This document shows positions 11,476-31,667 of a stretch of DNA of 43,175 bases, one piece after another. Source of the DNA: Synergistaceae bacterium (GTDB lineage Bacteria; Synergistota; Synergistia; Synergistales; Synergistaceae); NCBI GenBank assembly GCA_031269245.1, contig JAISZL010000090.1:1-43175 (forward strand). Direction: 5' to 3'. The number at the start of each line of letters is the position of its first letter. The first letter of the stretch is position 1. A program made the translations under genes and the position numbers. The notes under the pieces were generated by a model, which saw only the letters and a program-made list of their open reading frames with translations, did not search any database and had not been told where the DNA came from.

Positions 11476-13401
11476 TCATTTGATCCTTTCCATGGATTCG
11501 GATAGCGCCTCCCACGCCGCGTAAGCCTTAGCCAGCGACTCCTCCACGGATTTTCGCTCGATCATCAGGGGCCGCACCAGAGCGGAATCCGCCAGCAGAT
11601 CTGGGCGGCAGAGGGACTCGTCTATCTCGCCCCGGCGCGCTTCGAGGGCCGCTATCTCAGCCTCCAGCGGTTCTATCCTGTCTATGAATACCCTCCGCTC
11701 CCTGTAGAGCCTGTTGCGCTCCCGGGCCTCCTGACGCCGCTTATCCCTCACGGCGGAGACGGGCGGGTCTGGTGTCATCGTATGCTCGGACGCGCGCTGC
11801 GGTTCGCCGCGGCGCTCTATGAACCGCGAGTAGTTGCCGAGGTAGTTGCGGAGAGCTCCGCCTCGAATTTCGAGCACTCGTTCGGCAAGGTTGTCCAGGA
11901 AGAACCTGTCGTGCGACACTATCAGCAGCGTGCCGCCGTACTGAAGGAGGGCGCGCTGGAAGATATCGCGCGTGCACATGTCGAGGTGGTTGGTCGGCTC
12001 GTCTAAGATCAGGAAGTTCGAGTCGGAGAGGAGCAGTTTGAAGAGCGCCACCCTTGACTTCTCGCCTCCCGACAGGATGCGTATCGGTTTTTTTATGTCG
12101 TCCCCGCTGAAGAGAAACGCGCCCAGTAGACCGCGTTTGTCGGCCTCGCTCATAGGCGAGCCGGTCCTGCAAGCCTCCTCCCACACCGTGTGAGAGTAAT
12201 CCAGGTTCTGCGCGCTCTCCTGCGAGAAGTAGGCCATCCTAACGTTGTGGCCGGTCTTGACGAGGCCGCGGTCAGGGGCCTCCGTGCCCGACAGGAGCCG
12301 CAGAAGTGTCGACTTGCCCGCCCCGTTCACGCCGACCAGCGCTACGCGCTCGCCCCTGTGTATCTCCAGGTCCAGCCCCGAAAATACCTCGACGCCGCCG
12401 TAGCTCTTGGCGAGCGAACGGGCCTCTATGACGTCGTATCCGCTCCGGGGGGCCTCGGGGAATTTTATGCTGACCGTTCTGTTCGGGGCGTCCATCTCGC
12501 GTATCTCCATCTTTTCGAGCTGTCTGACACGGCTCTGCACCTGAGCGGCCTTGCTCGATTTGTAGCGGAAGCGGTCGATGAAGCGCCGCATGTGCTCGAC
12601 GCGCTCGCGTTGATCCTCTATCGCCCGCGCGAGGCGCCTCCTCTCCGCCTCGCGCTCGGTCAGGTACCGCTCGTAGCCCATGGGGTAGCGCGTTATCTCG
12701 CCGCGGGACATTTCCGCGATCTCGGTTGCCATGTGGCCGATAAAGAGCCTGTCGTGAGAGACGAAGATCATCACGCCTCTGTGCCCCCTGAGCCAACCCT
12801 CCAGCCACTCCATGCTCTCCGTGTCGAGGTGGTTCGTGGGCTCGTCGAGCAGCAGGATGCCGGGCTTCCTGAGGAGTATCGCCGCGAGCGCGAGCCTCAT
12901 GCGCCACCCCCCGGAGAATTCGCGGCACGGCCGCGTCTCGTCGCCGTCGGCGAAGCCAAGGCCCTTCATCACGCGGCGCGCCGCGGAGTCGAACTCGTAC
13001 CCGCCCATGTGGGCGAAGTCACGCTCGATCTCCTCGTGCTCCGCCATGCGCCGCGAGAGCTCACGCGAGCCGCCGGGCAGGGCCGATATACGCGCCTCCG
13101 CCTCGAACAGCCTCTCCTGAAGCGATGACAGCCCGACGCTGTCCCTCAGGTAATTGATCGCGACGCCGTCCCCCAGTTCGACCAGGTCCTGCGGGAGATA
13201 ACCGACCGCAACGCGGGGGGCTGTCTCCACGCTCCCGTCGTCCGGCGCGATCCTCCCGGCCAATATGCGAAGCAGCGTCGTCTTGCCGGTTCCATTGTCG
13301 CCGACCAAGCCGACGCGCGAGTTTTCGGCTATGAGCCAGTTGAGGTTTTTTACGATGACCTTCTCGCCGAAGGCCATGGAGAGATTTTTTATCAGAATCA
13401 G
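11476..13401 (-). CDS. ABC-F family ATPase (Uup/EttA-like), probable CTG start
   Basis: Soluble twin-ATPase of about 641 residues, a type that binds ribosomes (translation factors, antibiotic protection) rather than transporters. Two ABC domains are visible: Walker A GDNGTGKTT and GVNGAGKST, signatures FSGGWRMRLALA and LSGGEKSRVAL, and two LDEPTNHLD Walker B blocks. The inter-domain linker is rich in Arg/Glu (RVEHMRRFIDRFRYKSSKA), and the C-terminus forms a coiled coil. No transmembrane part exists. No ATG, GTG or TTG fits the N-terminus. A CTG at 13399-13401 follows GGAGGG with a short spacer, overlaps the stop of the upstream gene as CTGA, and gives MILIKNLSMAFG, the normal family start. 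The exact role among ABC-F types is unknown. Confidence 0.9.
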   Translation of the reverse strand: MILIKNLSMAFGEKVIVKNLNWLIAENSRVGLVGDNGTGKTTLLRILAGRIAPDDGSVETAPRVAVGYLPQDLVELGDGVAINYLRDSVGLSSLQERLFEAEARISALPGGSRELSRRMAEHEEIERDFAHMGGYEFDSAARRVMKGLGFADGDETRPCREFSGGWRMRLALAAILLRKPGILLLDEPTNHLDTESMEWLEGWLRGHRGVMIFVSHDRLFIGHMATEIAEMSRGEITRYPMGYERYLTEREAERRRLARAIEDQRERVEHMRRFIDRFRYKSSKAAQVQSRVRQLEKMEIREMDAPNRTVSIKFPEAPRSGYDVIEARSLAKSYGGVEVFSGLDLEIHRGERVALVGVNGAGKSTLLRLLSGTEAPDRGLVKTGHNVRMAYFSQESAQNLDYSHTVWEEACRTGSPMSEADKRGLLGAFLFSGDDIKKPIRILSGGEKSRVALFKLLLSDSNFLILDEPTNHLDMCTRDIFQRALLQYGGTLLIVSHDRFFLDNLAERVLEIRGGALRNYLGNYSRFIERRGEPQRASEHTMTPDPPVSAVRDKRRQEARERNRLYRERRVFIDRIEPLEAEIAALEARRGEIDESLCRPDLLADSALVRPLMIERKSVEESLAKAYAAWEALSESMERIK

Positions 13402-14009
13402 GGTCTTCCCTCCGAGTCGATAATCGCGCGGATCATTGCGCCGGTCATGAAAGCAAGGCACTCGAAGTCGAGGAAGCGCGGCGCGCTTCTGTCGAACATT
13501 ATCTGTATGTCGGCTGGAAATTCCTCGTCGGCCTCGTAAAAAACTATCTGGGACAAAATTTTGGGCAGCGGCCGCAACTGCCAAACGTGTTTGCCGGAGC
13601 TCGACGTCGGAATCTCGACTCCGCCCAGGCTTTCCATAGCGCGGGCGAATCTTCCGTAGTCGTCCGCGAATTCGCGAATCAGCGGGTCGTTCATTATGCT
13701 GTTCGCAAGGTTTTTCTGCCCGTCGATCATGCCGGTGAGTCTGTTCAATAGGGCGAAGTCGTGCGAAAAATCGCCGCTGCCGGACGACGTGACATAATAG
13801 ATAAGGATGCTGCGGATATTTACATTGACGGGTTCTCCGTCCTCCGGCTCGACTCCGTCGTTCGTGATTATGTAATCGCGCCCCAGGAACGAGAGCCTGA
13901 CCCCGTCCTCTGAGCGCGTCCCGCCAAGGCGGGACGCGCTCTCGGCCCAGTCGAGCTCCGCCAGCTTCGGCAGCAGCGTGGAGTAAATTTTGTCATATCC
14001 CTTGCCCAT
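13398..14009 (-). CDS. DUF3786 domain protein
   Basis: About 203 residues with the DUF3786 pattern: GYDKIYSTLLPKLAELDW at the start, VRLSFLGRDYIIT, a YYVTSS segment, FADDYGRFARAMESLGG, and the C-terminal DEEFPADIQIMFDRSAPRFL. The family is found in strict anaerobes, sometimes fused to Fe4S4 domains or near corrinoid and C1 genes, but has no known activity. The frame is open further upstream, but the ATG at 14007-14009 has GGAGG eight bases before it and starts the conserved domain; an ATG at 14028-14030 is an alternative. The stop overlaps the CTG start of the ABC-F gene. It diverges from the CODH/ACS operon across a 561-base region. Confidence 0.85.
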   Translation of the reverse strand: MGKGYDKIYSTLLPKLAELDWAESASRLGGTRSEDGVRLSFLGRDYIITNDGVEPEDGEPVNVNIRSILIYYVTSSGSGDFSHDFALLNRLTGMIDGQKNLANSIMNDPLIREFADDYGRFARAMESLGGVEIPTSSSGKHVWQLRPLPKILSQIVFYEADEEFPADIQIMFDRSAPRFLDFECLAFMTGAMIRAIIDSEGRP

Positions 14010-14300
14010 ACAATCCGCCTCCGTCGTCATGCCGTACGAGAATATTTTATCAGGAGACGCTGATTTGTTGTAGATACCTGAAGGATAAATATTCAAGAAA
14101 ACACTGAGTTTATTGCCGAGTGCCTGAAGGGCGGAGATTCGAACCACTCTGGAACCCACTCCCGCCTCCCGCGCGGGGCGGCGATTGGCGGCGCAAAATT
14201 TTCTTAAAAATGACGCGCTTGTGTCTCTCGGCGGAAGCGGGCACATGAGTTGAAGAAGCTCGGAAAATAACGACACTTCCTTAAAATTTCACGGATAGAT

Positions 14301-14570: not shown

Positions 14571-15467
14571 ATGGGTAAAATAGTTGACGTGCTCAAAACT
14601 GGTAAGATCTTGGTATCGGACGGCGCTTGGGGGACGTTCCTCTACGAGAAGGGGATGAAGGCGGGGGAGTGTCCCGACGCGTGGTCGGTCAACCGCTTCG
14701 ACGACGTAGTCGACATCGCCAAGAGCTACGCTGACGCCGGCGCCGACATGGTGGAGGCCAACAGCTTCGGCGCGAGCTACTACAAGCTGGAACACTTCGG
14801 TCTTCAGGACAGGGCGGCGGAGATCAACGAGTACGCCGCGCGCGCGTCCCGCAAGGGCGCCGGCGACAAGTACGTCATCGCGTCGATCGGCCCCACCGGC
14901 AAACTCCTGGTCACCGAGGAGGTTACGGAGGAGGATCTGTACGAGGCGTTCAAGGTCCAGGCCGTGGCCCTCGAAAAGGGCGGGGCCGACGCGGTCTGCA
15001 TCGAGACGATGAGCGACGCCGGCGAGGCCTGCTGCGCCATCAGGGCGACGAAGGAGAACACCAAACTCGAGATCATCACGACGTTCAGCTTCGACAAAAC
15101 CGTGCAGGGCACCTACAGGACGATGATGGGGCTGTCCCCGGAGGACGCGGTCAAGGCGTCCCTCGATGCGGGATCTGACATCGTCGGCACGAACTGCGGC
15201 AACGGCTTCGAGAGGATGATCGAGATCGTGAGTGAGATGAAATCCGCGTATCCCGACGCTCTGATACTCGTGCACGCGAACGCTGGGCTTCCGCAGAACG
15301 TAGACGGCAAGGACTTCTTCCCCGAGACGCCTGAGATGATGGCGGCGCAGGTGGATGATCTCATCAAGGCCGGCGCCAACATCATCGGCGGTTGCTGCGG
15401 GTCGACTCCGGCGCACATCGCGGCCATCAAGAAGGTCGTGGACGCGCACAACAAGAAGGCGGCGTAA
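14571..15467 (+). CDS. Homocysteine S-methyltransferase family protein (MetH N-domain type)
   Basis: A 298-residue, single-domain TIM-barrel zinc methyltransferase of the Hcy-binding family. Blocks include LVSDGAWGTFLYEKGM near the N-terminus, EANSFGASYYKLE, the zinc ligand segment GTNCGNG (about residue 205), and the second pair in IGGCCGSTPAHI near the C-terminus. The ATG at 14571 has GCAGGAGGT before it; an in-frame ATG at 14508 is not preceded by a ribosome site. It has no pterin, B12 or reactivation domain, so it is not a full methionine synthase. As first gene of the CODH/ACS operon it may move methyl groups between homocysteine or another thiol and a corrinoid protein such as CFeSP. 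That role is inference. Confidence 0.88.
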   Translation: MGKIVDVLKTGKILVSDGAWGTFLYEKGMKAGECPDAWSVNRFDDVVDIAKSYADAGADMVEANSFGASYYKLEHFGLQDRAAEINEYAARASRKGAGDKYVIASIGPTGKLLVTEEVTEEDLYEAFKVQAVALEKGGADAVCIETMSDAGEACCAIRATKENTKLEIITTFSFDKTVQGTYRTMMGLSPEDAVKASLDAGSDIVGTNCGNGFERMIEIVSEMKSAYPDALILVHANAGLPQNVDGKDFFPETPEMMAAQVDDLIKAGANIIGGCCGSTPAHIAAIKKVVDAHNKKAA

Positions 15468-15550
15468 GGCTGGCGTCATCGGAGGGAGGTCCTCCAGGGA
15501 GGCTGGTTTGTCCTCAAATCGGCCAAGACAGACAAAGCGGAGGTGTAGCA

Positions 15551-16618
15551 ATGAAGACCAAGTTTTTGAGCACGGCGATAGGAAGTATGCCATATGAAGA
15601 CCCGGCGCACGCGGTGGACGTGGCGCTAGCCTCGCAGGACGCGCCCATCTGGCCGCAGCTCCCGTTCTTTGGGTTGAAGGAGCAGATGGAGATTCAGTAC
15701 AGCGAGGGCGTCCCCTGCGCGGTGATAGACGAGGAGAAGGGGCGCATGTTCTTCGACACCGCCCGCGACTACTCCGACGACTTCGCCGCGTTTTACGACG
15801 CGTACACCACGGCGATGGACCCCGACGAGGGTAACGGCGACTGTTCCTCCATGGCTATAACCGAGGAGTTCTCGAAGGGGCTCTTCGCGTTGGATCGAAA
15901 GCTCAAGGCGGACGGGAAGAGACTGCCGTGGGTCAAGGTCCAGACGACCGGGCCATGCAGCTTCGCGCTCACCATTACCGACGAGAACAAGCGAGCCATC
16001 TACTACAACGAGGAGTTCCGCGACGTAATAATAAAGGCTATGGCCATGAAGTGCCGCTGGCAGATACAAAAATTCAAGGAGTATGCCGACAACGTCATCT
16101 GCTTCATCGACGAACCGATCCTATCCGCCTTCGGAAGTTCGACCTACGTGTCGGTGCAGCGCGCTGACGTGGTGGCGCACCTCGCCGAGGTTATCGACGC
16201 GGTGCACGCCGACGGGGCCTACGCCGGGATCCACTGCTGCGGCAACACGGAGTGGAGCATCCTGACCGACGCCGGGGTCGACCTCGTCAATTTCGACGCG
16301 TATGGGTTCGGCGAGACCATCTCGCTCTACGGCAAGGAGGTCAGGGGGCACCTGGAGAAGGGCAGGGGGCTCGCGTGGGGAATAGTGCCGACGTCCAGCA
16401 AGATCATGGAGGAGAGCATCGAGTCGTTGGAGGAGATCCTCGAGAAGAACATGGACAAACTCTCCGGCGTGACCGGACTCGACAAGAGCCTCATCGCTGA
16501 GCAGGCGGTGCTCACCCCCTCCTGCGGCACCGGCTCGCTCTCCGTGGCGGAGGCCGACAAGGTGTTCGACATGCTGGGCAAGCTCACCAAGAGGATGAAG
16601 GAGAAGTACGGGTTCTGA
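15551..16618 (+). CDS. UROD/MetE-like zinc methyltransferase (core-MetE type)
   Basis: A 355-residue TIM-barrel protein of the UROD/MetE superfamily. The N-terminus STAIGSMPYEDP resembles core-MetE proteins. Probable zinc ligands are the His and second Cys of HCCGN (about residue 220) and the Cys of LTPSCGTG (about residue 318), matching HxC...C of MetE and MtbA/MtaA; the MetE glutamate ligand appears to be Asp here. There is no MetE N-terminal half. GGAGG lies eight bases before the ATG. Known core-MetE enzymes of some anaerobes take methyl from the corrinoid iron-sulfur protein to make methionine, which fits this operon. MtaA-like methyl:CoM-type activity is less likely. The substrate is not proven. 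Confidence 0.82.
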   Translation: MKTKFLSTAIGSMPYEDPAHAVDVALASQDAPIWPQLPFFGLKEQMEIQYSEGVPCAVIDEEKGRMFFDTARDYSDDFAAFYDAYTTAMDPDEGNGDCSSMAITEEFSKGLFALDRKLKADGKRLPWVKVQTTGPCSFALTITDENKRAIYYNEEFRDVIIKAMAMKCRWQIQKFKEYADNVICFIDEPILSAFGSSTYVSVQRADVVAHLAEVIDAVHADGAYAGIHCCGNTEWSILTDAGVDLVNFDAYGFGETISLYGKEVRGHLEKGRGLAWGIVPTSSKIMEESIESLEEILEKNMDKLSGVTGLDKSLIAEQAVLTPSCGTGSLSVAEADKVFDMLGKLTKRMKEKYGF

Positions 16619-16730: not shown

Positions 16731-17501
16731 TTGAAGATAGCCGTTTCAGGAAAAGGCGGGGTGGGGAAGTCCACCGTGGCGTCAATCATAGCCCTGATGA
16801 AGGCCGAGGCCGGAGACAGGGTCCTGGCGCTTGACGCCGATCCGGACGCCAACCTGGCGTCCTCCTTGGGGATACCTCATCGCGAGCAGCGGCGCATAGT
16901 CACGATATCTCAGCAGATAGAGCTGATCGAGGAGAGGACCGGTGCCAAAGTGGGGCAGTACGGGCAGGTGTTCAGGCTGAACCCGGACGTGGCCGACGTG
17001 GCCGATCACTATGCCTACAAGCACAGGGGCGTGTCGCTCCTCGTGCTCGGGGCGGTGAAGTCCGGCGGAGGCGGTTGCGCCTGCCCGGAGAACACCTTCA
17101 TTCGCGCTCTCGTCAACGACCTCGTCCTCTTCAAAGGGGACACGCTGATAATGGACATGGAGGCCGGCATCGAGCACCTGGGGCGCGCCACGTCCCAGGG
17201 CGTCGACGCGATGCTGGTCGTCGTCGAGCCGGGGCAGAGGTCAGTGGACTGCGCCCTCCTGGTGGAGCGGATGTCGCACGAGATCAGGGTCAAGAGGGTC
17301 CTGTTCATGGTGAACAAGGTCGCCTGCGACGCTGACAGAAGCTTCATCAGGGAGGCGCTCCCCAAGAGGGAGATACTGGCCTTCCTGCCGTACTCCGGCG
17401 AGATGAGAAACGCCGACCGCGACGGAGCGTCCCCGTATGACTTCCTGGACGACGAAACTCGCGGTCAATATTACGAAATAATAAAGAGGTTGGAGACATG
17501 A
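16731..17501 (+). CDS. cooC: CooC-type nickel-insertion ATPase, copy 1
   Basis: A 256-residue SIMIBI-class ATPase that helps load nickel into CO dehydrogenase or acetyl-CoA synthase. The deviant Walker A is SGKGGVGKST at residues 6-15, the switch I region is DADPDANLASSLG, and the metal-binding CxC is C116/C118 in GGGGCACPENTF, where CooC dimers bind one nickel. The start is a TTG at 16731 with GGCGAGGG upstream. Its ATGA overlap with the second CooC gene implies coupled translation. Two copies beside one CODH and one ACS suggest that one serves each enzyme (CooC and AcsF roles), but sequence alone does not say which. Confidence 0.92.
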   Translation: MKIAVSGKGGVGKSTVASIIALMKAEAGDRVLALDADPDANLASSLGIPHREQRRIVTISQQIELIEERTGAKVGQYGQVFRLNPDVADVADHYAYKHRGVSLLVLGAVKSGGGGCACPENTFIRALVNDLVLFKGDTLIMDMEAGIEHLGRATSQGVDAMLVVVEPGQRSVDCALLVERMSHEIRVKRVLFMVNKVACDADRSFIREALPKREILAFLPYSGEMRNADRDGASPYDFLDDETRGQYYEIIKRLET

Positions 17502-18250
17502 GCTGTCTGTTCGCTTTATCGGGGAAGGGCGGCGTGGGCAAGACGACGCTGGCCGGCCTGTTTGTCCGCGGTTTGAGGGAGATCGGGAGGAAGCCGATCC
17601 TCGCGATCGACGCCGACCCGAACAGCTGCCTCGCCGACATGCTGGGTGTGCGAGTGCGATTTACCATTGGATCGGCGCGCGAGACGGTCCGCGACGAAGC
17701 GGAGGCTCAGAAGATATCCAAGCAGGAGCTGCTCAGGATGAAAATCGCTCAGGGCCTGGTCGAGAGCAACGGCTTCGACCTCATCTCCATGGGTCGCCCG
17801 GAGGGGCCTGGCTGCTACTGCTACGCAAACAACGTTCTCAAGTCGGCAATAAAGGAGCTTTCCGATCAATACCCCTACGTGGTCTTGGACAACGAGGCGG
17901 GCCTGGAGAACCTCTCCCGCAGAATAGTTCAGTCGGTCGACGTGCTGACGCTGGTCTCCGACGCGTCCAACGCCGGCATGAACACGCTGGAGAGGCTCTA
18001 TGGCCTGGCGCGCGAGATGGGCGTGGGGTTCAGGAAGCTCGTTTTGCTGGTAAACCGAACACGAGGGGGTGAATTGCCTGAATCTGCCGCCCGTGTTCAG
18101 AAGAACACCGGGGCGCGGAATATGCTGGCCCTGCCGTACGACGAGGAGATAGCGACCCTGGCCGAGGAGTCGAGGCCAGTCTGGGATGTGAGTGACGAAA
18201 ACCCGATCTATCGTAAAATATTGGAGCTTGTCAGGGAGACCAGCGGATAA
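17498..18250 (+). CDS. cooC: CooC-type nickel-insertion ATPase, copy 2
   Basis: A 250-residue paralogue of the previous gene. Walker A is SGKGGVGKTT near residue 9, followed by DADPNSCLADMLG, and the CxC metal site is C106/C108 in GPGCYCYANN. The sequence NEAGLENLSRR matches the switch II DxEAG(I/L)E.L region of CooC proteins. It differs from copy 1 in most positions, so the duplication is old. It ends 72 bases before the CODH gene. It probably loads nickel into CODH or ACS, as AcsF (CooC2) does for ACS in acetogens; the division of labour is inferred. Confidence 0.92.
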   Translation: MSCLFALSGKGGVGKTTLAGLFVRGLREIGRKPILAIDADPNSCLADMLGVRVRFTIGSARETVRDEAEAQKISKQELLRMKIAQGLVESNGFDLISMGRPEGPGCYCYANNVLKSAIKELSDQYPYVVLDNEAGLENLSRRIVQSVDVLTLVSDASNAGMNTLERLYGLAREMGVGFRKLVLLVNRTRGGELPESAARVQKNTGARNMLALPYDEEIATLAEESRPVWDVSDENPIYRKILELVRETSG

Positions 18251-18322: not shown

Positions 18323-20266
18323 ATGGCTGACGCAAGCGCGTATTCAAACAAGGCGGACGACGTCGCATCCGTGGAGATGCTGGAGAAAGCTGGGCTCGAC
18401 TGTATCGAGACATGCTTTGATCGCTATGAGACTCAAAAAAACCACTGCAAGTTCGGAAAAGAGGGCACGTGCTGCAAGATATGCTACATGGGTCCCTGCC
18501 GCATCACGCCCAAGTCACCGAAGGGCGTGTGCGGGGCGGACGCCGACACCATCGCGGCCCGCAACTTCCTGCGCGAGGTGACGGGCGGCACCGCGTCCCA
18601 CTCAGATCATGGGCGCCACGTCGCCCTCCTGCTCAAGGAGATAGCGCACGGCAAGGAAGTCGGATATGAGGTCAAGGACCCGCAGGCCGTCGTGGAGATA
18701 GCCAAACTTTATGGCATCGAGACGGAGGACCGGGAGATGATTGATGTGCTCCGCGATCTCTCCGACATATTCATCGGAGACTTCACCTCGCAGGAGGAGA
18801 CGATACAGACCGTGTCGCTGGCTCCGCAGAAGACCAGGACGACGTGGGCGGGCCTTGGCGTGATGCCCCAGGGGATAGACCGGATGTGCGTCGAGGCCAT
18901 GCACCGCACCCACATGGGAGTCGATCACGACTACAAGAACCTGCTCATGCACGCTTTCCGCCAGTCCATAGCCAACGGCTGGGGTGGGTCGCGCATAGCG
19001 TCGATGGCGTCCGACATACTGTTCGGAACGCCGCGGGCGCTGCGCACCGAGGTCAACCTCGGCATATTGAACGAGAAGAACGTGAATATATTGGTCCACG
19101 GACATGAGCCGACGCTATCCGACATGATAGCGATTGCGGTCAAGGACCCGGAGATAACAGAGTACGCGAAAGCCGCGGGCGCGGAGGGCGTGACGGTCGG
19201 CGGCATATGCTGCACGGCGAACGAGATACTCATGCGCCACGGCATACCGATCGCCGGCAACTTCCTGCAGCAGGAACTGGCGCTCGTGACCGGAGCGGTG
19301 GAGATGATGATCGTCGACGTGCAGTGCATCATGCCGTCGCTGCCGGTCGTGGCCGAGCACTACCACACGAAGATAGTGGGCACCACGGAGATGGCCAAGA
19401 CGATAGGCGCCGAGGCGTTCGATTTCAGCGAGGCGCGCGCGTTCGAGTGCGCGAAAGAGCTGGTCAAGATGGCCATCGACAACTTCAAGAACCGTAAGCC
19501 GGATCTCGTCAAGATACCCGATAAGAAGGAGACGGTCATCGCTGGCTTCAGCGTCCGCGAGATCAAGTACATGCTCGGCGGGTCGTTCCGCGCGTCGTTC
19601 CGCCCGCTCAACGACGCCATAATACAGAACAGGATCAAGGGCGTCGTAGGTATAGTCGGCTGCAACAACCCCAAATTCAAGACGGATTGGTACTGCAACG
19701 AGCTGGTGAAGGAGCTCGTGAAGAACAACGTCCTGGTCGTAGAGACGGGATGCTGCGCCATAGCCTCCGGCAAGGACGGCAAGCTGACGCCGGAGACGGC
19801 GCTAGAGTACGCGGGCCACGGCCTAAAGGAGGTCTGCGAGGCTGTGGGCATCCCGCCGGTACTGCACATGGGCAGCTGCGTGGACAACACGAGAATACTC
19901 GAGGCATGCACCGAGATAGTCAAGGAGGGCGGTTTGGGCGACTCCATAGCCGGACTTCCGGCCGCCGGCGTCTGCCCGGAACTCATGAGCGAGAAGGCGG
20001 TTTCCATAAGCTGCTACTGCGTGGCGACTGGCCTTGACGTCTTCATCGGCCACCCGTTCCACATCACCGGAGCCCAGAACGTCTACAAGTTCCTGACCGA
20101 GGACGTGCGCGAGATGTTTGGCGCCTCCATGCACTTCGTCGAGGACCCCATCGAGGCGGCGAAGCAGATCGTCGAGGTCCTGGATGCGAAGCGGGAGAAG
20201 CTGGGCATCAACAAGAAGTACGAGCGCAAGCTCCTGGAGCAGAAGGACAGGAGGGAGGTGGCGTAA
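18323..20266 (+). CDS. acsA: Carbon monoxide dehydrogenase, nickel catalytic subunit (ACS partner)
   Basis: Ni-Fe CODH of 647 residues that interconverts CO2 and CO and passes CO to acetyl-CoA synthase. N-terminal cysteines 42, 50, 51, 54, 59 and 70 supply the D and B [4Fe-4S] clusters. C-cluster ligands are present: the HGHEP motif (259-261), C296 in GGICC, C335 in DVQCIM, C447 in VGCNNP, C477/478 in TGCCAI, and C519 in GSCVDN. Lys558 in SEKAVSI matches the proton-transfer lysine. The length matches other bacterial CooS/AcsA proteins. The ATG at 18323 follows a GGGGGAA stretch. It abuts the acsB fusion gene with no gap, so both act as the CODH/ACS complex. No residue known to be essential is missing. 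Confidence 0.97.
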   Translation: MADASAYSNKADDVASVEMLEKAGLDCIETCFDRYETQKNHCKFGKEGTCCKICYMGPCRITPKSPKGVCGADADTIAARNFLREVTGGTASHSDHGRHVALLLKEIAHGKEVGYEVKDPQAVVEIAKLYGIETEDREMIDVLRDLSDIFIGDFTSQEETIQTVSLAPQKTRTTWAGLGVMPQGIDRMCVEAMHRTHMGVDHDYKNLLMHAFRQSIANGWGGSRIASMASDILFGTPRALRTEVNLGILNEKNVNILVHGHEPTLSDMIAIAVKDPEITEYAKAAGAEGVTVGGICCTANEILMRHGIPIAGNFLQQELALVTGAVEMMIVDVQCIMPSLPVVAEHYHTKIVGTTEMAKTIGAEAFDFSEARAFECAKELVKMAIDNFKNRKPDLVKIPDKKETVIAGFSVREIKYMLGGSFRASFRPLNDAIIQNRIKGVVGIVGCNNPKFKTDWYCNELVKELVKNNVLVVETGCCAIASGKDGKLTPETALEYAGHGLKEVCEAVGIPPVLHMGSCVDNTRILEACTEIVKEGGLGDSIAGLPAAGVCPELMSEKAVSISCYCVATGLDVFIGHPFHITGAQNVYKFLTEDVREMFGASMHFVEDPIEAAKQIVEVLDAKREKLGINKKYERKLLEQKDRREVA

Positions 20267-23200
20267 ATGTCGAAGATAATCTGTTCAAGCGCCATCAACG
20301 GAGCGATCGAGTGGGTGAGGAAGGCAGACGCCGCCGTCACCGAGGCCATAAGGGAGAAGGGGCCGGAGCAGGCCATCGGATTCCCCAGCACGAACTATTA
20401 CCTTCCTATTATATATTCCTTCACCGGCAGGAAGATGGAGACCCTGCAGGACCTGCAGGGCATCGTGGAGTACTCCAGGAACCTGCTTCCCGCGCGCGTC
20501 CTGGACAGCAACTGGCTCCCGTACCTCGGGCAGACGCTTGACGCGGGCGCTGCCGCTCTCTTCGCCTGCGAGGCTATAGAGGCCGTGAAGTACATCATGG
20601 GGCCAAACCCGGTCGACGGGATCTGGCTGGGAGCGGCTAACGACGTCATCATGAGGGAGCGCGGCGTCGAGTTCGTCGACGGAAGCGCCCCCGGGTTCGC
20701 CGCCGTAACCGGGCGCGCCCCGGACAACGAGACGGCTGTCAAGATAGCGAAGGAGCTTCAGCAGAAGAACCTCTACGTCTTCATGGGCGGCAGCACCGGC
20801 GGGCTCCAGTTCGCCGAGCAGCTCGCGGCCGAGGGTGTTCAGCTCGGCTGGGAGACGCGCCTCGTCCCCTTTGGCAGGGACGTGTCGGCGCTGGTCTACG
20901 CTCTCGGCTTCGCGAGCAGGACGGCGCTCTCCTTCGGAGGCGTCAAGCCGGGGGACTACGCGGCGAACCTGAAGTACAACAAGAACAGGGTCTTCGCGTT
21001 CGTCCTGGCCTTCGACGAGGTCGACGAGGAGAAGTACTCCGCCGCGGCCGGCGCAATAAACTACGGCTTCCCCGTTTTGGCGGACACCGCCATCCCGCAG
21101 ATACTCCCGACGGGCGTCTGCACATACGAGCACGTGGTGTCGAGCGTGCCGTACGACACGATGGTCGAGAAGGCGCTGGAGGTGCGCGGCTGCAAGATCA
21201 AGGTCACGCACGTCCCGGTACCTGTCGCGTACGGCGCGGCGTTCGAGGGCGAGCGCATTCGCAAGGAGGACACCTACGTCGAGTTCGGCGGAAACAAGTC
21301 CTCCGCCTTCGAGTTCGTGACAAGCGTCGACTTCGACGACATAAACGACAACGAGTTCGAGCTGATAGGTAAGGACGTGGACGAGGTCGAGCCCGGCTCC
21401 GTCCTGCCGCTGGCCATATGGGTCGAGGTCGCGGGGCGCAAGATGCAGCCCGACTTCGAGCCGATCCTCGAGCGCCAGATACACCACCTGGTGAACGGCG
21501 CGGAGGGGATATGGCACATGGGGCAGCGCGACATCGTGTGGACTCGAATCTCCAACGACGGCTTTAAGAAGGGCCTGCGCATCAAGGACTACGGCAGGAT
21601 AATTCACGCCAAGTTCCACGACGACTATCCCGCCATAGTGGACAAGGTGAAGGTCACCCTCGTCACCGATCCTGACGAGGTCGAGAAGCGCCAGAAGATA
21701 GCGCGCGAGACCTACGCCTTCCGAAACAAGCGAGTCGAGGCCATGACCGACGAGTCGGTGGATATATTCTACTCCTGCCTGCTCTGCCAGGCGTTCGCCC
21801 CGAACCACGTCTGCGTCATCACGCCGGAGCGCTTGGGCCTCTGCGGCGCCTATAACTGGCTCGACGGCAAGGCGGCTTACGAGATCGACGAGACTGGGGG
21901 CAACCAGCCGGTCAAGAAGGGCGAGTGCCTCGACCCGGTCAAGGGCATCTGGACCGGCGTCAACGAATACGCCTACACGAACAGCCACAAGACCGTCACC
22001 GGTTTCTGCGCGTACTCCATCATGGACCGGCCTATGACGAGCTGCGGCTGCTTCGAGGCGATATGCGCGTACCTCCCCGAGTGCAACGGCGTGATGGTGG
22101 TCAATCGCGAGTTCCTGGGCGACACGCCGGTCGGCATGTCCTTCTCGGCCCTCGCCGGCAACGTCGGCGGCGGCGCTCAGACCCCGGGGTTCATGGGTGT
22201 CGGTAAGGTGTTCTTAACGAGCCGTAAGTTCCTCTACGCCGAGGGCGGCTATGCGCGTCTCGTCTGGATGCCGAAGGAGTTGAAGGACGCCGTGCGCGAG
22301 GACATGGAGAAACGGCTGAAGGAGCAGAACCTCGAGGGCTTCCTCGACAAGATAGCGGACGAGACGATCGCCACCACCGCCGAAGAGGTTAGGGCGTTCA
22401 TGGAGAAGGTCGGGCATCCGGCGCTTACGATGGCCGACATGGCGGAGTTCGCTCAGAGCGAAGAGGAGGAAGAAGGCCTGCCGCCGCTTCCCACGAGCGT
22501 GGAGGACGAGCAGGAGGAAACGGAGGAGGAAGAGGAAGTGAGAGCAGTCATCGACGAGTCCAGCCTGGAGGAACTGAAGACAAAGCTCATTGCCGACGTG
22601 AGCGCTGCGGTGGTGAAGGAGTTAGTCGGTGGCATCGTCAACGCCCTTTCGGTGCAGTTCCTCGGAGGCTCCGGCACTATAGCCGTCGGAGGCCCGGCGC
22701 AGCCCGAGGCCGCTCCCGCCAAGCCCGCCGCGCCCGCCAAGACGCCGGGCAAAAAGATAGTCGGCGGCATCAAATCATTCGCTGTGCGCCACGACAAGTG
22801 CGAGTCCCCGGTCTGGGAGGTCAAGCTGGGCAACTCCAAGGAGGAGGGAGGCACGCGCAGAACCTGCGTGGTAGGAGGCGAGACGGCGAAGCCATTCCAT
22901 CTCTGGGAGGGCAGCATGCCCCACAAGCCGCTCGTCGCGCTCGAGGTGCTGGACATCGTGACCGATAAATACCCGCCCGTCCTGGCGGACATCTACGGCA
23001 GGGACCTGCTCAACGATCCGGTCGAGATGGCCAAGGTGTGCGTCGGCAAGTACGGGGCGGACCTCCTCAGCGTGTCGCTCCTCGGCACCCACCCCGAGAA
23101 GGGGGACAAATCGGCGGACGAGGCGGTCAAGCTGGTCGGCTCGATACTGCAGGCGGTCGACGTGCCGCTCATCATCACGGGCCACTCCAACTACGACAAG

Positions 23201-23746
23201 CACAACGAGGTCTTGAAGGCCGTCGCCCAGACGTTCGCGGGGGAGAACCTGCTCCTCAACTGGGTCGAGCAGGACAACTACAAGACTTTGGCCGGAGCCG
23301 CCATGGCGTACGGGCACTCGCTCGTGGCGCAGTCGCCGATCGATGTCAACATAGCGAAGCAGATGGTCATACTGCTCACGAACATGGACTTCCCGAAGGA
23401 CCGCATTGTGGTGGATCCGACCACGAGCGCGCTGGGCTACGGAGTCGAGTACACGTACTCCGTCATGGAGCGCATCCGCGTGACCGCTCTGGACGGCGAG
23501 CCCATGCTCTGCGCCCCGATGGTGGTATCGACGGGAGTTGAGACGAGCAAGATAAAGGAAGCGAAGGCGCCCGAGGCCGACTTCCCGGCCTGGGGCAAGG
23601 TGGAGGATCGCATCGCGGCCCTCGAGTTCGTCGCGGCGCAGTCCTACCTGTACGCCGGCGCCGACCTCCTGATCATGTACCATCCGGAAGCGGCGGTTCA
23701 GATTAAAAACACCATCGACGAACTGATGGACGGGGCAAGGGGGTAA
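20267..23746 (+). CDS. acsB: Acetyl-CoA synthase fused to CFeSP small subunit (AcsB-AcsD)
   Basis: A single frame of 1159 residues. Residues 1 to about 730 are bacterial acetyl-CoA synthase: A-cluster cysteines C504, C507, C516 and C526 with the exact CX2CX8CX9C spacing, and the distal nickel site C593-G-C595 in SCGCFE. An acidic linker (about 731-760), a helical segment (about 762-800) and an Ala/Pro linker follow. Residues about 830-1159 match AcsD/CdhD, the small corrinoid/iron-sulfur protein subunit, with KPLVALEVLDI, LLLNWVEQDNYK, the VDPTTSALGYGVEYTYS barrel strand and MYHPEAAVQI. ACS makes acetyl-CoA from CO, CoA and a methyl group delivered by CFeSP. The two are normally separate genes. 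The fusion would tether donor and acceptor. A GTG at 22538 with G-rich sequence before it could allow separate AcsD to be made as well. Confidence 0.93.
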   Translation: MSKIICSSAINGAIEWVRKADAAVTEAIREKGPEQAIGFPSTNYYLPIIYSFTGRKMETLQDLQGIVEYSRNLLPARVLDSNWLPYLGQTLDAGAAALFACEAIEAVKYIMGPNPVDGIWLGAANDVIMRERGVEFVDGSAPGFAAVTGRAPDNETAVKIAKELQQKNLYVFMGGSTGGLQFAEQLAAEGVQLGWETRLVPFGRDVSALVYALGFASRTALSFGGVKPGDYAANLKYNKNRVFAFVLAFDEVDEEKYSAAAGAINYGFPVLADTAIPQILPTGVCTYEHVVSSVPYDTMVEKALEVRGCKIKVTHVPVPVAYGAAFEGERIRKEDTYVEFGGNKSSAFEFVTSVDFDDINDNEFELIGKDVDEVEPGSVLPLAIWVEVAGRKMQPDFEPILERQIHHLVNGAEGIWHMGQRDIVWTRISNDGFKKGLRIKDYGRIIHAKFHDDYPAIVDKVKVTLVTDPDEVEKRQKIARETYAFRNKRVEAMTDESVDIFYSCLLCQAFAPNHVCVITPERLGLCGAYNWLDGKAAYEIDETGGNQPVKKGECLDPVKGIWTGVNEYAYTNSHKTVTGFCAYSIMDRPMTSCGCFEAICAYLPECNGVMVVNREFLGDTPVGMSFSALAGNVGGGAQTPGFMGVGKVFLTSRKFLYAEGGYARLVWMPKELKDAVREDMEKRLKEQNLEGFLDKIADETIATTAEEVRAFMEKVGHPALTMADMAEFAQSEEEEEGLPPLPTSVEDEQEETEEEEEVRAVIDESSLEELKTKLIADVSAAVVKELVGGIVNALSVQFLGGSGTIAVGGPAQPEAAPAKPAAPAKTPGKKIVGGIKSFAVRHDKCESPVWEVKLGNSKEEGGTRRTCVVGGETAKPFHLWEGSMPHKPLVALEVLDIVTDKYPPVLADIYGRDLLNDPVEMAKVCVGKYGADLLSVSLLGTHPEKGDKSADEAVKLVGSILQAVDVPLIITGHSNYDKHNEVLKAVAQTFAGENLLLNWVEQDNYKTLAGAAMAYGHSLVAQSPIDVNIAKQMVILLTNMDFPKDRIVVDPTTSALGYGVEYTYSVMERIRVTALDGEPMLCAPMVVSTGVETSKIKEAKAPEADFPAWGKVEDRIAALEFVAAQSYLYAGADLLIMYHPEAAVQIKNTIDELMDGARG

Positions 23747-23752
23747 CGTATC

Positions 23753-25072
23753 ATGGCATTGACCGGACTGCAAATTCAAAAACTGCTGCCGAAGACGAAC
23801 TGCAAGGAGTGCGGCTCGAACACGTGCCTTGCCTTCGCGATGAAGCTCGCGGGCAAGAAGGCCGAGCTCTCCGAGTGCCCGTACGCCTCCGATGAGGCGA
23901 AGGCCATTCTGGGCGCGGCGAGCGAGCCGCCGGTGAAGACCGTCACGCTGGGCGAGGCCAAGGTGGGCGGGGAGCTGTATCTCTGCCGCCACGAGAAGAC
24001 CTTCTTCAACCAGCCGATCTTCGCGGTCAACGTCGACGACACCGACGACGGGCTGAAGGACAAGATTGAGCAGATCAAGAACTACGTCCTGGAGCGAGTC
24101 GGCGAGATACTCACCATCGGAGCGATCGCCGTCACCCAGATGCAGGACGACTCACAGAAGTACCTCGACGCGGTCAAGACGGCCGCGGCGTCGGGGCGGC
24201 CGATAATACTGCGCGCCAAGAACGCCGCGACCGCTAAGGAGGCCGCCGTGCTGATCAAGGACAACGGCGGCGTCATCGTGAACAGCGTCAAGGAGAGCGC
24301 GCTCGAGCTCGCTACAGTGGCGCGGGAGAACGGGCTCATCCTGGGCGTCACCGGCGCGACTTTGGACGAGATAGCGGAGGTCACCGGCCAGGTGAAGGAG
24401 AGCGGTTTCAACGACATCCTGCTGGGGATACCGGCGGAGTCGCTGGCGCAGCGCTTCCAGCTCAACACGGTGGCCCGCCGTGCCGCGCTCGGGAATATAA
24501 AGACCATGGGCTACTCGTTCCTGCACTTCATCGAGGACGACAACATATACAACGTGCTCCGCGAGTCCACCAACGAGGTCTGCAAGTACGGCGGCGTGAT
24601 CGTCTTCCCGAAGCTGGATATAGCGTTGATTTCCACGGTCATGACGCTCCGCCAGAACATATACACCGACCCGCAGAAGCCCATCCAGATGGAGCCGGGC
24701 ATCTACAGGATCGGCGAGCCGACGGAGGACTCCTACGTGTGGCTCACGACCAACTTCTCGCTTACCTACTTCCTCGTGTCAGGCGAGATCGAGGGTTGCG
24801 GGCAGAACGCGTGGCTGATACTGCCGGAGTGCGAGGGGCTGAGCGTGCTCACCGCGTGGGCGGCGGGCAAGTTCGGCGGCGACATGATCGCCAAATTCGT
24901 GTTGAGCCAGGGGCTGAACGAATCGCAGAAAAATAAGAGCCTCATCATCCCGGGTTACGTCGCGCAGATCAAGGGCGACATAGAGGAAGGGCTTCCCGGG
25001 TGGAACATCATTGTGGGGTCGCAGGAGGCGGGGGACATAGAGTCGTTCGTCAACTCGACTCTCAATAAGTAA
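23753..25072 (+). CDS. acsC: Corrinoid/iron-sulfur protein large subunit (AcsC/CdhE)
   Basis: The 439-residue large subunit of CFeSP, which carries the methyl group on cobalamin between methyl-THF and acetyl-CoA synthase. The N-terminal [4Fe-4S] domain has C17, C20, C25 and C42 (NCKECGSNTCLAF...ECP), which supplies electrons for reductive activation. A TIM barrel and a C-terminal cobalamin-binding region (LTAWAAGKFGGDMIA, then PGYVAQIKGDIEE) follow. The ATG lies seven bases after the fusion gene. Its natural partner AcsD is the C-terminal domain of that fusion protein, so the CFeSP heterodimer would be physically attached to ACS. Confidence 0.96.
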   Translation: MALTGLQIQKLLPKTNCKECGSNTCLAFAMKLAGKKAELSECPYASDEAKAILGAASEPPVKTVTLGEAKVGGELYLCRHEKTFFNQPIFAVNVDDTDDGLKDKIEQIKNYVLERVGEILTIGAIAVTQMQDDSQKYLDAVKTAAASGRPIILRAKNAATAKEAAVLIKDNGGVIVNSVKESALELATVARENGLILGVTGATLDEIAEVTGQVKESGFNDILLGIPAESLAQRFQLNTVARRAALGNIKTMGYSFLHFIEDDNIYNVLRESTNEVCKYGGVIVFPKLDIALISTVMTLRQNIYTDPQKPIQMEPGIYRIGEPTEDSYVWLTTNFSLTYFLVSGEIEGCGQNAWLILPECEGLSVLTAWAAGKFGGDMIAKFVLSQGLNESQKNKSLIIPGYVAQIKGDIEEGLPGWNIIVGSQEAGDIESFVNSTLNK

Positions 25073-25158: not shown

Positions 25159-25189
25159 GTGATTATCGCAGCAATTGGGGAATGTTGAT

Positions 25190-27088
25190 ATGCCGCAGAT
25201 TACTTTTTTGCCTGGGAAACTTGTATGCGAGGTGGAGGTTGGAACGAGCGTGCCGGAGGCGGCCGAGAGGTGCGGGGCGGTGATATCGTACCCTTGCGCC
25301 TGCAAGGGGGCGTGCGCGAAGTGCATCGTCAGGGTCGAGCGCGGCTCCCTGGATTTCGCCGACAACGGCAAGCTGTCGTTTGACCTCAAGCGCCAGGGCT
25401 TCGTCCTGGCTTGCAGGTCGTCGGTCTCGGAGGACGTGGAGGTCCTCATACCGTCCTCGGTTGGCGACGAGGCGGGGCAGTTCTCGGACGCGATTAGCCG
25501 CATGGGGGTGGATGAGGACCTCTTCCCCACCGAGCGTGACATAAAGCCGCTCGCGTCGTGCGCTAAGATATCGGTTGCGCCGGCGGAGATGTTAGATGGG
25601 CTCGGCGACTACGACCGCTTCGTCCAGGCCGTTAGGGACTCGTCCCCGGCCGCCGCGGTGGATCTTCCGCTGGACCTGCTCCAGCATCTGCCGGACGTCC
25701 TTCGCGAGAGCGATGGGGATGTTTTCGTCTGGCGCGCCGACGAGGGGGGCGTATCGCGCATCGTGGATATAAGGTCGTCAGCCCCGGAGACGGATTACGG
25801 GGTGGCCGTCGACATCGGGACCACGACGGTCGCTGTCCAGCTCGCGGACGTGACGCGAGGGAGGATAGTGGACACGGTCACGCAGTACAACGCGCAGATC
25901 GACAGGGGCGCGGACATCATCAGCAGGATCACCTACGCCAAAAATTTCGACAGAATACGAGAGATGCGAGGGCTCGTGCTCTCCACCATAAACAGGGGCA
26001 TCTCGGAGCTTCGCGAGAGAAACGGCAATATTCCGAAGGACGAGATACGCAACGTCGCTATTGCGGGCAACACCACGATGGCGCACCTTTTCATGGGTAT
26101 AAGGCCCGAGTACATTCGGCTCGAGCCGTACACTCCGGCCGTCATGAGGGTGCCGCTTCACAGGGCATCGGAGCTCGGGCTGGAGGTCAACCCCAACGCG
26201 CTGGCCTGGGTGTCGCCGAACGTCGGCAGCTACGTCGGAGGGGACATAACGGCCGGTATACTCTGCACGGACTTCGCGCGCGGCGTCCAGGAGGTCTGCC
26301 TCTTCATAGACATAGGCACGAACGGCGAGATCGTGCTGGGGAACGGCGACTTTTTGCTGGGGTGCGCGTGCTCGGCGGGGCCCGCGTTCGAGGGGGGCGG
26401 CATCGAGCGGGGGATGCGCGCGTCGAGGGGGGCGATAGAGCGCGTGGAGGTCGATCCAGAGTCGGGGGAGTGCCGCTGCTTCGTGATAGGCGGCGGCGAG
26501 CCCAAGGGCATCTGCGGATCGGGCCTCATATCGCTTCTGGCTCAGTTGCTCGACGCGGGGATCATAGACCAGCGGGGGAAATTGGACCGCTCCGGGAAAT
26601 ATCCGTCAGTCAGGGTCGCGGGCAAGACGGCCAGATATGTCATGGTCCCATCCTCCGAGGGCGATCCCGGCGTGTATCTGACCGAGCATGACATAGACAA
26701 CTTCATAAGGGCAAAGGCGGCGATCTTCTCGGCCTGCGTCACCCTCTTAAACAGCGTAGACATGGACTTCGGCGCGATAGACAAGTTCTACATCGCCGGC
26801 GGCTTCGGGAGGTACATCGCCATAGACAGGGCGCGGACGCTTGGCCTGCTGCCGTTCCTCGACGAGGATAAGTTCCTCTACATAGGCAACTCGTCTCTCT
26901 CCGGGGCGTTCATGTCCCTCTTGTCGGAGAGGCACAGGAACATGGTCTCGGAGTTGGCCAACAGGATAACGTATATCGACTTGAGCACCGAGGCCGGGTA
27001 TATGGACGAGTACGTGGCGGCGATGTTCCTGCCGCACACCAACATGGAGCTGTTTCATGGAAAGGGGAGTGGGGTATGGGCGCGCTGA
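25190..27088 (+). CDS. acsV: RACo/AcsV-type ATP-dependent reductive activator of the corrinoid protein
   Basis: 632 residues. The N-terminal [2Fe-2S] ferredoxin domain has C36 or C38, C42, C45 and C75 in plant-type spacing. A linker and middle domain follow, and from about residue 200 an ASKHA ATPase domain with VDIGTTTVAVQL, IAGNTTMAH, FIDIGTNGEIVLG, and IAGGFGRYI. RACo reduces inactive Co(II)-CFeSP to Co(I) using ATP. Upstream in-frame codons are open, but the ATG at 25190 has GGGGA eight bases before it and starts the ferredoxin fold. It follows acsC and overlaps the next gene by 13 bases. Its family also activates other corrinoid methyltransferase proteins, but context favours CFeSP. Confidence 0.93.
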   Translation: MPQITFLPGKLVCEVEVGTSVPEAAERCGAVISYPCACKGACAKCIVRVERGSLDFADNGKLSFDLKRQGFVLACRSSVSEDVEVLIPSSVGDEAGQFSDAISRMGVDEDLFPTERDIKPLASCAKISVAPAEMLDGLGDYDRFVQAVRDSSPAAAVDLPLDLLQHLPDVLRESDGDVFVWRADEGGVSRIVDIRSSAPETDYGVAVDIGTTTVAVQLADVTRGRIVDTVTQYNAQIDRGADIISRITYAKNFDRIREMRGLVLSTINRGISELRERNGNIPKDEIRNVAIAGNTTMAHLFMGIRPEYIRLEPYTPAVMRVPLHRASELGLEVNPNALAWVSPNVGSYVGGDITAGILCTDFARGVQEVCLFIDIGTNGEIVLGNGDFLLGCACSAGPAFEGGGIERGMRASRGAIERVEVDPESGECRCFVIGGGEPKGICGSGLISLLAQLLDAGIIDQRGKLDRSGKYPSVRVAGKTARYVMVPSSEGDPGVYLTEHDIDNFIRAKAAIFSACVTLLNSVDMDFGAIDKFYIAGGFGRYIAIDRARTLGLLPFLDEDKFLYIGNSSLSGAFMSLLSERHRNMVSELANRITYIDLSTEAGYMDEYVAAMFLPHTNMELFHGKGSGVWAR

Positions 27089-27343: not shown

Positions 27344-27664
27344 ATGTGCGGAATTTACCAGAATCCCTATGAAATCGCGAGATCTCTGACGGTTGCCGCG
27401 ACCGAGAAGGTCGTCATAAACCCGGCGGGGAAGAGCGTGGAGGAGAGCAACGCGGAGCTTGGCCGTCAGGTCGCGCTTGTCTACAGGACGATCCTGCGCG
27501 AGCTGCTGCGCGACGAGCTGGCCCAGGACGGCGGCGGTCTGGACCTGGAGTCGCGCGACCACGTGCACAGCCACTCGCACGAGCACGGCGACGACGACCA
27601 CTCTCATGACCACGTGCACAGCCATTCGCATGAGCACGATCACAGCCATATCCACTCGCACTAG
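27344..27664 (+). CDS. Small protein with His-rich tail, CooJ-like nickel protein
   Basis: 106 residues. The first about 70 form a helical domain (for example EESNAELGRQVALVYRTILR) with a Cys at position 2. The last about 35 residues are mostly His with Ser, Glu and Asp (HVHSHSHEHGDDDHSHDH and so on). CooJ of Rhodospirillum rubrum, encoded with CODH, has the same build: about 115 residues and a His-rich C-terminal tail that binds several nickel ions. The gene is the last of the CODH/ACS operon and has AAGGAGGCGG before its ATG. A role in storing or handing nickel to the two CooC ATPases fits the context but is inferred; the N-terminal part shows no motif I recognise. Confidence 0.7.
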   Translation: MCGIYQNPYEIARSLTVAATEKVVINPAGKSVEESNAELGRQVALVYRTILRELLRDELAQDGGGLDLESRDHVHSHSHEHGDDDHSHDHVHSHSHEHDHSHIHSH

Positions 27665-30715: not shown

Positions 30716-30722
30716 TGAGAAG

Positions 30723-31667
30723 ATGGACCGTCTCCTCGTAGTGGCGAGCTCGCCTCACATAAGATCGGATATGAGCTCGCGAAAGATAATGGCGCTCGTC
30801 ATAATGTCGCTGATCCCCGCCGGGATCGCGGGAGCGTACTTCCTCGGCGTCCGGTCGATATTGGTGACGGCTGTCGCGGTGGTGTCGTGTGTCGCCGCGG
30901 AAGCCCTGTGGCAGAGGGCGGCGCGCCAGCCCGTCACGGTCTCGGACCTGTCGTCCGCGTTGACCGGCTTGCTCCTGGCCTACAATCTCCCGCCGGCGAT
31001 ACCGCTTTGGATGCCGGCAATCGGCGGTTTTTTCGCCATCATCGTGGCGAAGCAGTTATTCGGCGGGCTGGGGCAGAACATAATAAACCCCGCGCTCGCC
31101 GGCAGAGCGATGATGCTCATATGCTGGCCGGTCGCGATGACGACGTGGACGATTGACGGCGTCAGCGGCCCGACGGCGCTGGCCATCATCAAGGGTGCGG
31201 AGTCCGTGTCGGCGGAGCAAGGGTTGCCGACGCTTTTAGACGCGCTGATCGGCAGAATGGGCGGTTGCATAGGCGAGACTTCGGCGATAGCCCTGCTTGC
31301 CGGCGGCGTTTTTCTCATAGCTCGCGGGATCATCTCCTGGAGGATACCCGTCATCTACATAGCCACGGTCGCCGCGGCGTCCGTCGTCTTCGGGCGCGCG
31401 GCCGGTCCGCTGTATGAGGTGATGTCGGGAGGGCTGATGCTGGGTGCCTTCTTCATGGCGACTGATTACGCCACGTCGCCGCTCACGCCGAAGGGGCAGA
31501 TCATATTCGCCGTCGGCTGCGGCGTTATAGCGGCCCTCATACGGGCCTACGGCGGATACCCGGAGGGAGTGTCCTACTCCATCCTCATCATGAACCTCAC
31601 GGTGCCGATAATCGACAGGGCCACGGCCCCCAAAATCTTCGGGGAGGTGAAGAAGCATGGCGCATGA
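30723..31667 (+). CDS. rnfD: Rnf complex subunit D
   Basis: 314-residue integral membrane subunit with about nine predicted helices. It contains the covalent FMN-binding threonine motif as SGPT (in DGVSGPTALA), where most RnfD proteins have SGAT, and the FMATDYATSPLTPKGQ block typical of RnfD/NqrB. It sits seven bases after rnfC and overlaps rnfG by eleven bases. It carries electrons and takes part in ion transport. Confidence 0.95.
   Translation: MDRLLVVASSPHIRSDMSSRKIMALVIMSLIPAGIAGAYFLGVRSILVTAVAVVSCVAAEALWQRAARQPVTVSDLSSALTGLLLAYNLPPAIPLWMPAIGGFFAIIVAKQLFGGLGQNIINPALAGRAMMLICWPVAMTTWTIDGVSGPTALAIIKGAESVSAEQGLPTLLDALIGRMGGCIGETSAIALLAGGVFLIARGIISWRIPVIYIATVAAASVVFGRAAGPLYEVMSGGLMLGAFFMATDYATSPLTPKGQIIFAVGCGVIAALIRAYGGYPEGVSYSILIMNLTVPIIDRATAPKIFGEVKKHGA

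Follow-up and report, generated by a model that had tools for sequence, protein, structure and literature searches.

The window, by which we mean the whole 43,175-nucleotide stretch of DNA analyzed here, comes from a gut bacterium whose genome of 2.34 Mb is represented by 98 contigs at 96.7% completeness. In a scan of named genomes, its close relatives were named Synergistaceae MAGs. The window contains a CODH/ACS operon headed by 2 genes for predicted zinc-type methyltransferases, and is organized as follows:

138-1814: Fhs (formate-THF ligase), a profile match in the window
13398-14129, minus strand: divergent DUF3786 protein (PF12654, 132.5 bits)
14571-15467, plus strand: HcyMT, a stand-alone homocysteine S-methyltransferase of 298 aa (PF02574; predicted zinc ligands C209, C275 and C276)
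15551-16618, plus strand: predicted core methionine synthase of the MesB type, 355 aa (MetE catalytic-domain fold; predicted zinc ligands H228, C230, D249 and C325)
16731-17501, plus strand: CooC-like nickel-insertion ATPase 1 (PF01656; conserved position)
17498-18250, plus strand: CooC-like nickel-insertion ATPase 2 (PF01656; conserved position)
18323-20266, plus strand: AcsA / CooS-type CO dehydrogenase catalytic subunit (TIGR01702, 638 bits, above cut-off)
20267-23746, plus strand: fusion of AcsB (acetyl-CoA synthase) and AcsD (CFeSP small subunit), AcsB::AcsD, 1159 aa (NF040764, NF003376)
23753-25072, plus strand: AcsC, the CFeSP large (corrinoid, FeS) subunit (NF003195, 439.6 bits; PF04060 FeS)
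25175-27088, plus strand: AcsV / RACo-type corrinoid activator (RACo Pfam domains above cut-off; NF040756 at 616 bits, below its cut-off of 800)
27929-29251, plus strand: PocR-AraC regulator (PF10114 and PF12833)
29372-34487, plus strand: Rnf complex genes in the order C, D, G, E, A, B (RnfC domains and Fe-S domains of RnfB; the rest read from the frames)

Each head gene starts with ATG and has a motif resembling a ribosome-binding site before it: AGGAGG directly upstream of the HcyMT start at 14571 (stop at 15467), and GGAGGTG upstream of the core-MetE-like start at 15551 (stop at 16618). Rfam searches detected neither a SAM riboswitch nor any other element in the window, and gave no match at 9 operon loci or at 9 loci of corrinoid-protein clusters, so RNA control of the operon was rejected. 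A single cobalamin riboswitch was found among 8 further operon loci (L097, 6588-6771), where it does not directly precede the operon.

The first-pass annotation had read the leading gene as a stand-alone homocysteine S-methyltransferase, and the domain searches agree. Its product contains one domain (PF02574, 214.7 bits, cut-off 22) in 298 aa, and so does not have the MetH (Hcy + pterin + B12) architecture. Its best NCBIfam match was the N-terminal part of PRK08645, placing it closest to bifunctional HcyMT/MTHFR proteins and MetH N-terminal domains, and it aligned to the Hcy domain of T. maritima MetH at 3.8e-43. The 3 predicted zinc cysteines were kept in 51/51 aligned HcyMTs. An S-methylmethionine enzyme of the PRK09485 type was rejected as an identity for HcyMT, since this was the weakest of 5 matches (84 bits compared to a cut-off of 215). 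No HcyMT relatives were found on viral contigs.

A second HcyMT, 60% identical to the first, is encoded on contig C14 of the same genome, in a cluster with a corrinoid protein, an MtmB homolog, a Na+/H+ antiporter and a PLP enzyme. In a tree of 65 sequences, this paralog was placed in the clade of the operon HcyMTs (100/96, with the long branches there flagged as unsure), apart from MetH and the bifunctional proteins. Operon HcyMTs share a homologous homocysteine domain and zinc cysteines with the N-terminal domain of MetH and with bifunctional HcyMT-MTHFR proteins (PRK08645, YitJ type), but differ from both types in standing alone and in forming their own clade. The location of the paralog beside an MtmB homolog points to HcyMT acting on other corrinoid proteins rather than on CFeSP.

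The second gene was previously described as core-MetE-like. Its product gave no Pfam match, and its best NCBIfam match was to the archaeal methionine synthase model PRK00957 (1.4e-10, 40.8 bits compared to a cut-off of 258). PRK00957 was matched by 38/50 family members and MtbA, weakly, by 13/50, and the MesB-like protein exceeds no Pfam or NCBIfam cut-off. A search against sequences of solved structures was likewise negative, with 2 meaningless hits (E about 0.5) for the single sequence and none for the profile. The AlphaFold model (pLDDT 91.9) was closest in fold to MesD (3rpd; Z 24.7, rmsd 3.0, 281 aligned), compared to a Z of about 24 for the MetE catalytic halves, 19.7 for UROD and 18.9 for MtbA. 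Residues 3-355 superimposed onto MesD and residues 1-354 onto the C-terminal half of MetE, and there is no N-terminal folate domain. The predicted zinc ligands H228, C230, D249 and C325 were invariant in 81/81 sequences, and their spacing (2, 19, 76) is that of D. mccartyi MesB (ligands at 214/216/235/311; Price 2021, PMC7857596), unlike that of MesA and MesC. Core synthases of the MesB kind bind zinc through His, Cys, Glu or Asp, and Cys, and the characterised MesB uses Asp. Residues S12 and D187 were also invariant in 81/81, and by position may correspond to the homocysteine-binding Ser433 and Asp599 of MetE, residues that MesB enzymes mostly keep. The HxxG motif with His122 that was proposed for D. 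mccartyi core-MetE has no counterpart, as the window protein has no His in residues 100-150.

AcsC and AcsD are encoded in the same operon as the MesB-like gene. MesB is described as using methylcobalamin, with CFeSP proposed as the methyl source where MetF and AcsE are missing, and methyl transfer from CFeSP to homocysteine has already been proposed for the MesB family (Deobald 2020, PMC7005905; Price 2021, PMC7857596). Compared with D. mccartyi MesB by published ligand spacing rather than over the whole sequence, and with the predicted fold taken into account, our MesB-like protein appears to fit the published MesB family. The MesB half of the earlier idea is therefore of an already known kind.

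The first-pass annotation had also noted the absence of AcsE, and this holds for the whole genome. The only PF00809 (pterin-binding) match corresponds to FolP, beside FolK (both named from reading frames), and the AcsE/MetH model NF005719 gave no match. Since FolP is the sole pterin-binding protein, both AcsE and MetH are absent from the genome, and a hidden AcsE was rejected. The genome thus contains no acsE that could be expressed along with the operon, which would have counted against the earlier reading. Neither MetF (PF02219) nor MetE (PF01717) was matched in the genome, and a MetE or MetH encoded elsewhere in it was rejected on the null results for PF01717 and NF005719. Pfam found no PF00809 domain in HcyMT or in the MesB-like protein. 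The kind of second methyltransferase screened for in the genome was the pterin type (PF00809), and none was found. Thus the methyl branch of the Wood-Ljungdahl pathway is incomplete, with MetF and AcsE missing and Fhs present; an incomplete pathway with formate-THF ligase is likewise described for D. mccartyi (Deobald 2020, PMC7005905).

We considered whether the fused AcsD domain makes AcsE unneeded. Residues 10-725 of the fusion match the AcsB model NF040764 at 1038 bits, and residues 840-1154, the AcsD part, pass the archaeal-type CdhD model NF003376 (349.6 bits, cut-off 280) but fail the bacterial WLP_AcsD model (246 bits, cut-off 430). Archaeal CdhD/E accepts methyl from its pterin carrier. 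If the AcsD domain took methyl-THF in the same manner, the head genes would be ordinary methionine enzymes, and some carriers of the operon, such as G163, do possess MetF while matching neither AcsE nor MetH. However, the genome under study is without MetF and hence has no known source of methyl-THF, leaving this explanation highly improbable.

We examined 120 genomes of relatives, own genome included, counting CdhD matches at ≥100 bits. A nearly full-length MesB-like protein was present in 7/120, with a weak 89-residue match in one more. CdhD reached at least 100 bits in 9/120; some match was seen in 58/120, mostly weak, and many of these were in MetH-size frames. MetF was found in 84/120 genomes but in 0/7 of the MesB-like carriers, which also had MetH-size matches in 0/7 and lacked AcsE in 6/7. 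The exception, G004, is 7% contaminated and also possesses a second, unfused acs set. The other 2 CdhD genomes, G043 and G046, possess an acs set of the classical, unfused form next to acsE, plus MetF and MetH-size matches. Within the genus, the MesB-type acs operon and the folate route look like substitutes for one another. Genome G001, of the same genus, has neither a MetH-size match nor MesB, indicating that MetH loss does not need MesB. This genome, which is without CODH/ACS, encodes an AcsE-like protein with nearby MetF and Hdr-like genes (L093).

A scan of named genomes identified 137 relatives, of which the 80 best, at 60-88% identity, were retained. The gene order (HcyMT) - MesB-like - CooC - CooC - AcsA - AcsB::AcsD - AcsC - (AcsV) was the same in 80/80 of these best 80 of 137, as far as the flanking DNA extends, with one CooC preceding MesB in some; chance or artefact was rejected on the strength of this recurrence. 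Together with the conserved predicted ligands of both proteins, this order upholds the claim that 2 zinc-type methyltransferases head the CODH/ACS operon. AcsB::AcsD was fused in each of the 49 loci with a complete frame (49/49), and 6 more frames run off their contigs. Carriers are labelled as about 19 phyla in their records, MAG labels of which some are surely imprecise. Neither AcsE nor MetF was found within the 80 loci. HcyMT (≥60% identity) lay 6-890 bases upstream of MesB on the same strand in 50/72 loci, while 20/72 were without HcyMT and 2/72 had a distant one; 8 of the 80 were not judged. Since 20/72 operons are without HcyMT, MesB does not need it.

We examined 50 carrier genomes, picked by us from the 74 named loci that lay outside six previously analyzed genomes, favoring loci with larger flanks. 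Some MTHFR match was present in 40/50 and some match to the AcsE/MetH model in 42/50, part of the latter at the level of FolP, indicating that the operon is not always the sole methionine route. A general loss of MetF with the operon, which holds in the genus set (0/7), was accordingly rejected as a rule for carriers at large. Many of the MTHFR matches were in frames of 600-680 aa resembling bifunctional HcyMT-MTHFR, 2 of which were confirmed by Pfam. As in the window's genome, no MetF and no AcsE/MetH beyond the FolP level were found in G124, G132, G133, G135, G136, G141 and G144. Using our own threshold of ≥170 bits for canonical MetF, it was present in 4/34 carriers with HcyMT compared to 12/14 without (Fisher p 1.9e-6, without adjustment for relatedness); 2 of the 50 (L141, L154), whose upstream DNA is missing, were left out of this comparison. 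Two operon carriers encode a protein in which MTHFR and its C-terminal domain are joined to a pterin-binding domain (L215:1630-4077, 816 aa; L216:1265-3703, 813 aa), possibly a MetF::AcsE fusion.

This distribution bears on how the 2 head enzymes divide their work. HcyMT alone might be the methyl-CFeSP:homocysteine methyltransferase, with the MesB-like protein, a member of the MetE/UROD/MtbA superfamily, moving methyl between corrinoid proteins and another thiol, or directly from corrinoid to corrinoid. The weak MtbA matches and the similar MtbA fold are consistent with such a division, as are the operons that keep the MesB-like protein without HcyMT, often with canonical MetF, whose presence would make methionine synthesis by the MesB-like protein less necessary. 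On the other hand, the fold of the MesB-like protein is closest to methionine synthases, its zinc spacing is Dehalococcoides-like, and the candidate homocysteine-binding residues S12 and D187 are invariant. We therefore regard this division as doubtful, and quite unlikely.

The genome encodes 4 stand-alone corrinoid proteins, 3 of which adjoin methylamine- or MttB-type methyltransferases, namely MtmB homologs on C14 and C77 and an MttB-family protein on C80. The corrinoid protein on C35 is clustered with RACo, PocR, CobW and MetA, and in relatives this type of cluster also holds the methanol methyltransferase MtaB (530 bits). MetA was present in 8/8 such clusters (own C35 included) and MtaB in 6/8, G000 and G044 being without MtaB in the stretch examined. 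Clusters of MtaB, corrinoid protein, RACo, CobW-like protein, PocR and MetA were observed at L259, L258, L257, L260, L261, L262, L263 and L254. In G002, G004 and G006, the MtaB-MetA cluster adjoins the HcyMT-MesB-acs operon. MetA makes a homocysteine precursor, and its association with corrinoid-protein clusters therefore ties methyl-corrinoid proteins to methionine formation, with HcyMT as the likely acceptor enzyme. Against this reading of HcyMT, neither MtaB, MtmB nor MttB was found beside a corrinoid protein in the more distant carriers (10 loci read).

We consider it reasonably probable that the organism operates a folate-free methyl economy, in which homocysteine takes methyl from CFeSP via MesB and from methylotrophic corrinoid proteins via HcyMT. 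We infer the substrates, partners and direction of transfer as follows. Both head genes would provide the CODH/ACS operon with an outlet, and perhaps an inlet, for methyl groups that bypasses folate. The MesB-type zinc would bind homocysteine as thiolate, which would take methyl from methyl-CFeSP (AcsC plus the AcsD domain) to yield methionine. CFeSP itself would receive its methyl either from acetyl-CoA, cleaved at the C-C bond by the ACS domain while AcsA oxidises the CO, or from another donor. HcyMT, which is of the MetH N-terminal type but contains neither a corrinoid nor a folate domain, would convert CH3-corrinoid protein and homocysteine to methionine, its donors most likely being methyl-corrinoid proteins, chiefly the host's methanol and methylamine ones. 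In this manner the pair could make methionine without MetF, MetH, MetE or AcsE, and homocysteine/methionine would be the point where methylotrophic methyl groups and CODH/ACS meet. The earlier suggestion that the pair makes methionine from CFeSP-methyl is partly supported: the MesB-like protein fits the MesB family, whereas the paralog beside an MtmB homolog directs HcyMT toward other corrinoid proteins.

The same enzymes could run as a methyl shuttle in which HcyMT makes methionine from the methyl-corrinoid proteins of methanol or methylamine use, MesB working in reverse methylates CFeSP, and ACS forms acetyl-CoA from methyl, CO and CoA, folate taking no part. The genome has methyltransferase systems and 4 corrinoid proteins, yet no pterin-type second methyltransferase, and the earlier suggestion that CFeSP is loaded from another methyl donor gains some ground from this. 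The MtaB neighborhoods of G002, G004 and G006, and RACo inside the operon with Rnf and PocR beside it, are also in keeping with a shuttle, and methyl-dependent acetogenesis without the methyl branch is described as a proposal for termite-gut Bathyarchaeia (PMC7886697). Methionine synthesis alone would explain the neighboring PocR and Rnf genes less well than a role in energy metabolism. However, operons without HcyMT exist. In addition, passing a methyl group from methionine to cob(I)alamin runs strongly uphill and would need a very high methionine/homocysteine ratio, and for this reason we rate flow from methionine to CFeSP lower. The shuttle is thus rather unlikely, and unlikely too is the notion that homocysteine/methionine replaces folate as the CODH/ACS methyl carrier, with HcyMT loading methionine and the MesB-type enzyme passing methyl to CFeSP for acetyl-CoA. 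If true, this would represent a module for acetogenesis that carbonylates methyl groups without folate, is common among bacteria of gut and sediment, and has spread between phyla as an operon.

Comparison with known systems delimits what is new. Like MesB, the bacterial core-MetE of D. mccartyi, the protein is a MetE catalytic half without a folate domain, has H, C, D, C ligands at identical spacing, and occurs with AcsC/AcsD in a genome without metF, acsE, metE and metH. In contrast to D. mccartyi, the gene occupies the second position of a complete CODH/ACS operon that includes CODH, a fused AcsB::AcsD and, in most cases, HcyMT as a further zinc enzyme; Price 2021 (PMC7857596) describes a mesB-acsC-acsD operon for some methanogens only. 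The classical acetogen acs cluster, seen in relatives G043 and G046, shares CooC, AcsA, AcsB, AcsC, AcsD and AcsV, whereas here AcsB::AcsD is fused and 2 thiol methyltransferases are present instead of AcsE, which neither operon nor genome contains. As in the methylotrophic MtaABC and MtmBC systems, a corrinoid protein is combined with a zinc thiol methyltransferase as putative methyl acceptor enzyme, but with a PF02574 homocysteine domain in place of MtaA/MtbA or a pterin-type MT2.

No description of a mesB-HcyMT-acs operon or of an AcsB::AcsD fusion was recognized in the open literature searched. As far as searches of open papers show, the mesB-acs operon type, its spread over about 19 labelled phyla, the HcyMT pairing, the AcsB::AcsD fusion (49/49 readable loci) and the paralogous HcyMT in a methylamine-methyltransferase cluster are new. 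To date, the MesB idea rests on one tested enzyme and is otherwise drawn from phylogenetic profiles. The present findings extend it to an operon that unites a putative methyl donor, CFeSP, with homocysteine methyltransferases and a carbon-carbon-bond enzyme, providing a candidate route linking CODH/ACS to methyl metabolism in bacteria without MetF, AcsE, MetH and MetE. They further suggest that CODH/ACS genes by themselves should not be taken as evidence of CO2-based acetogenesis.

Several additional features were observed at or near these loci. In relatives, homologs of the divergent DUF3786 protein likewise lie next to the operon or next to corrinoid loci. The window also encodes, at 27344-27664 between the activator and regulator genes, a 106-aa protein with a histidine-rich C-terminal tail and no Pfam or NCBIfam match, possibly a metal-binding helper. 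The second MtmB homolog, on C14 (L095:4969-6345; PF05369, 290 bits), has no internal stop and carries valine at the pyrrolysine position. The MtmB gene on C77 (L256:5744-7140), beside a corrinoid protein, carries TAG in frame as codon 203, and the surrounding sequence is that of the pyrrolysine site of M. barkeri MtmB. The organism probably uses pyrrolysine and methylamine.
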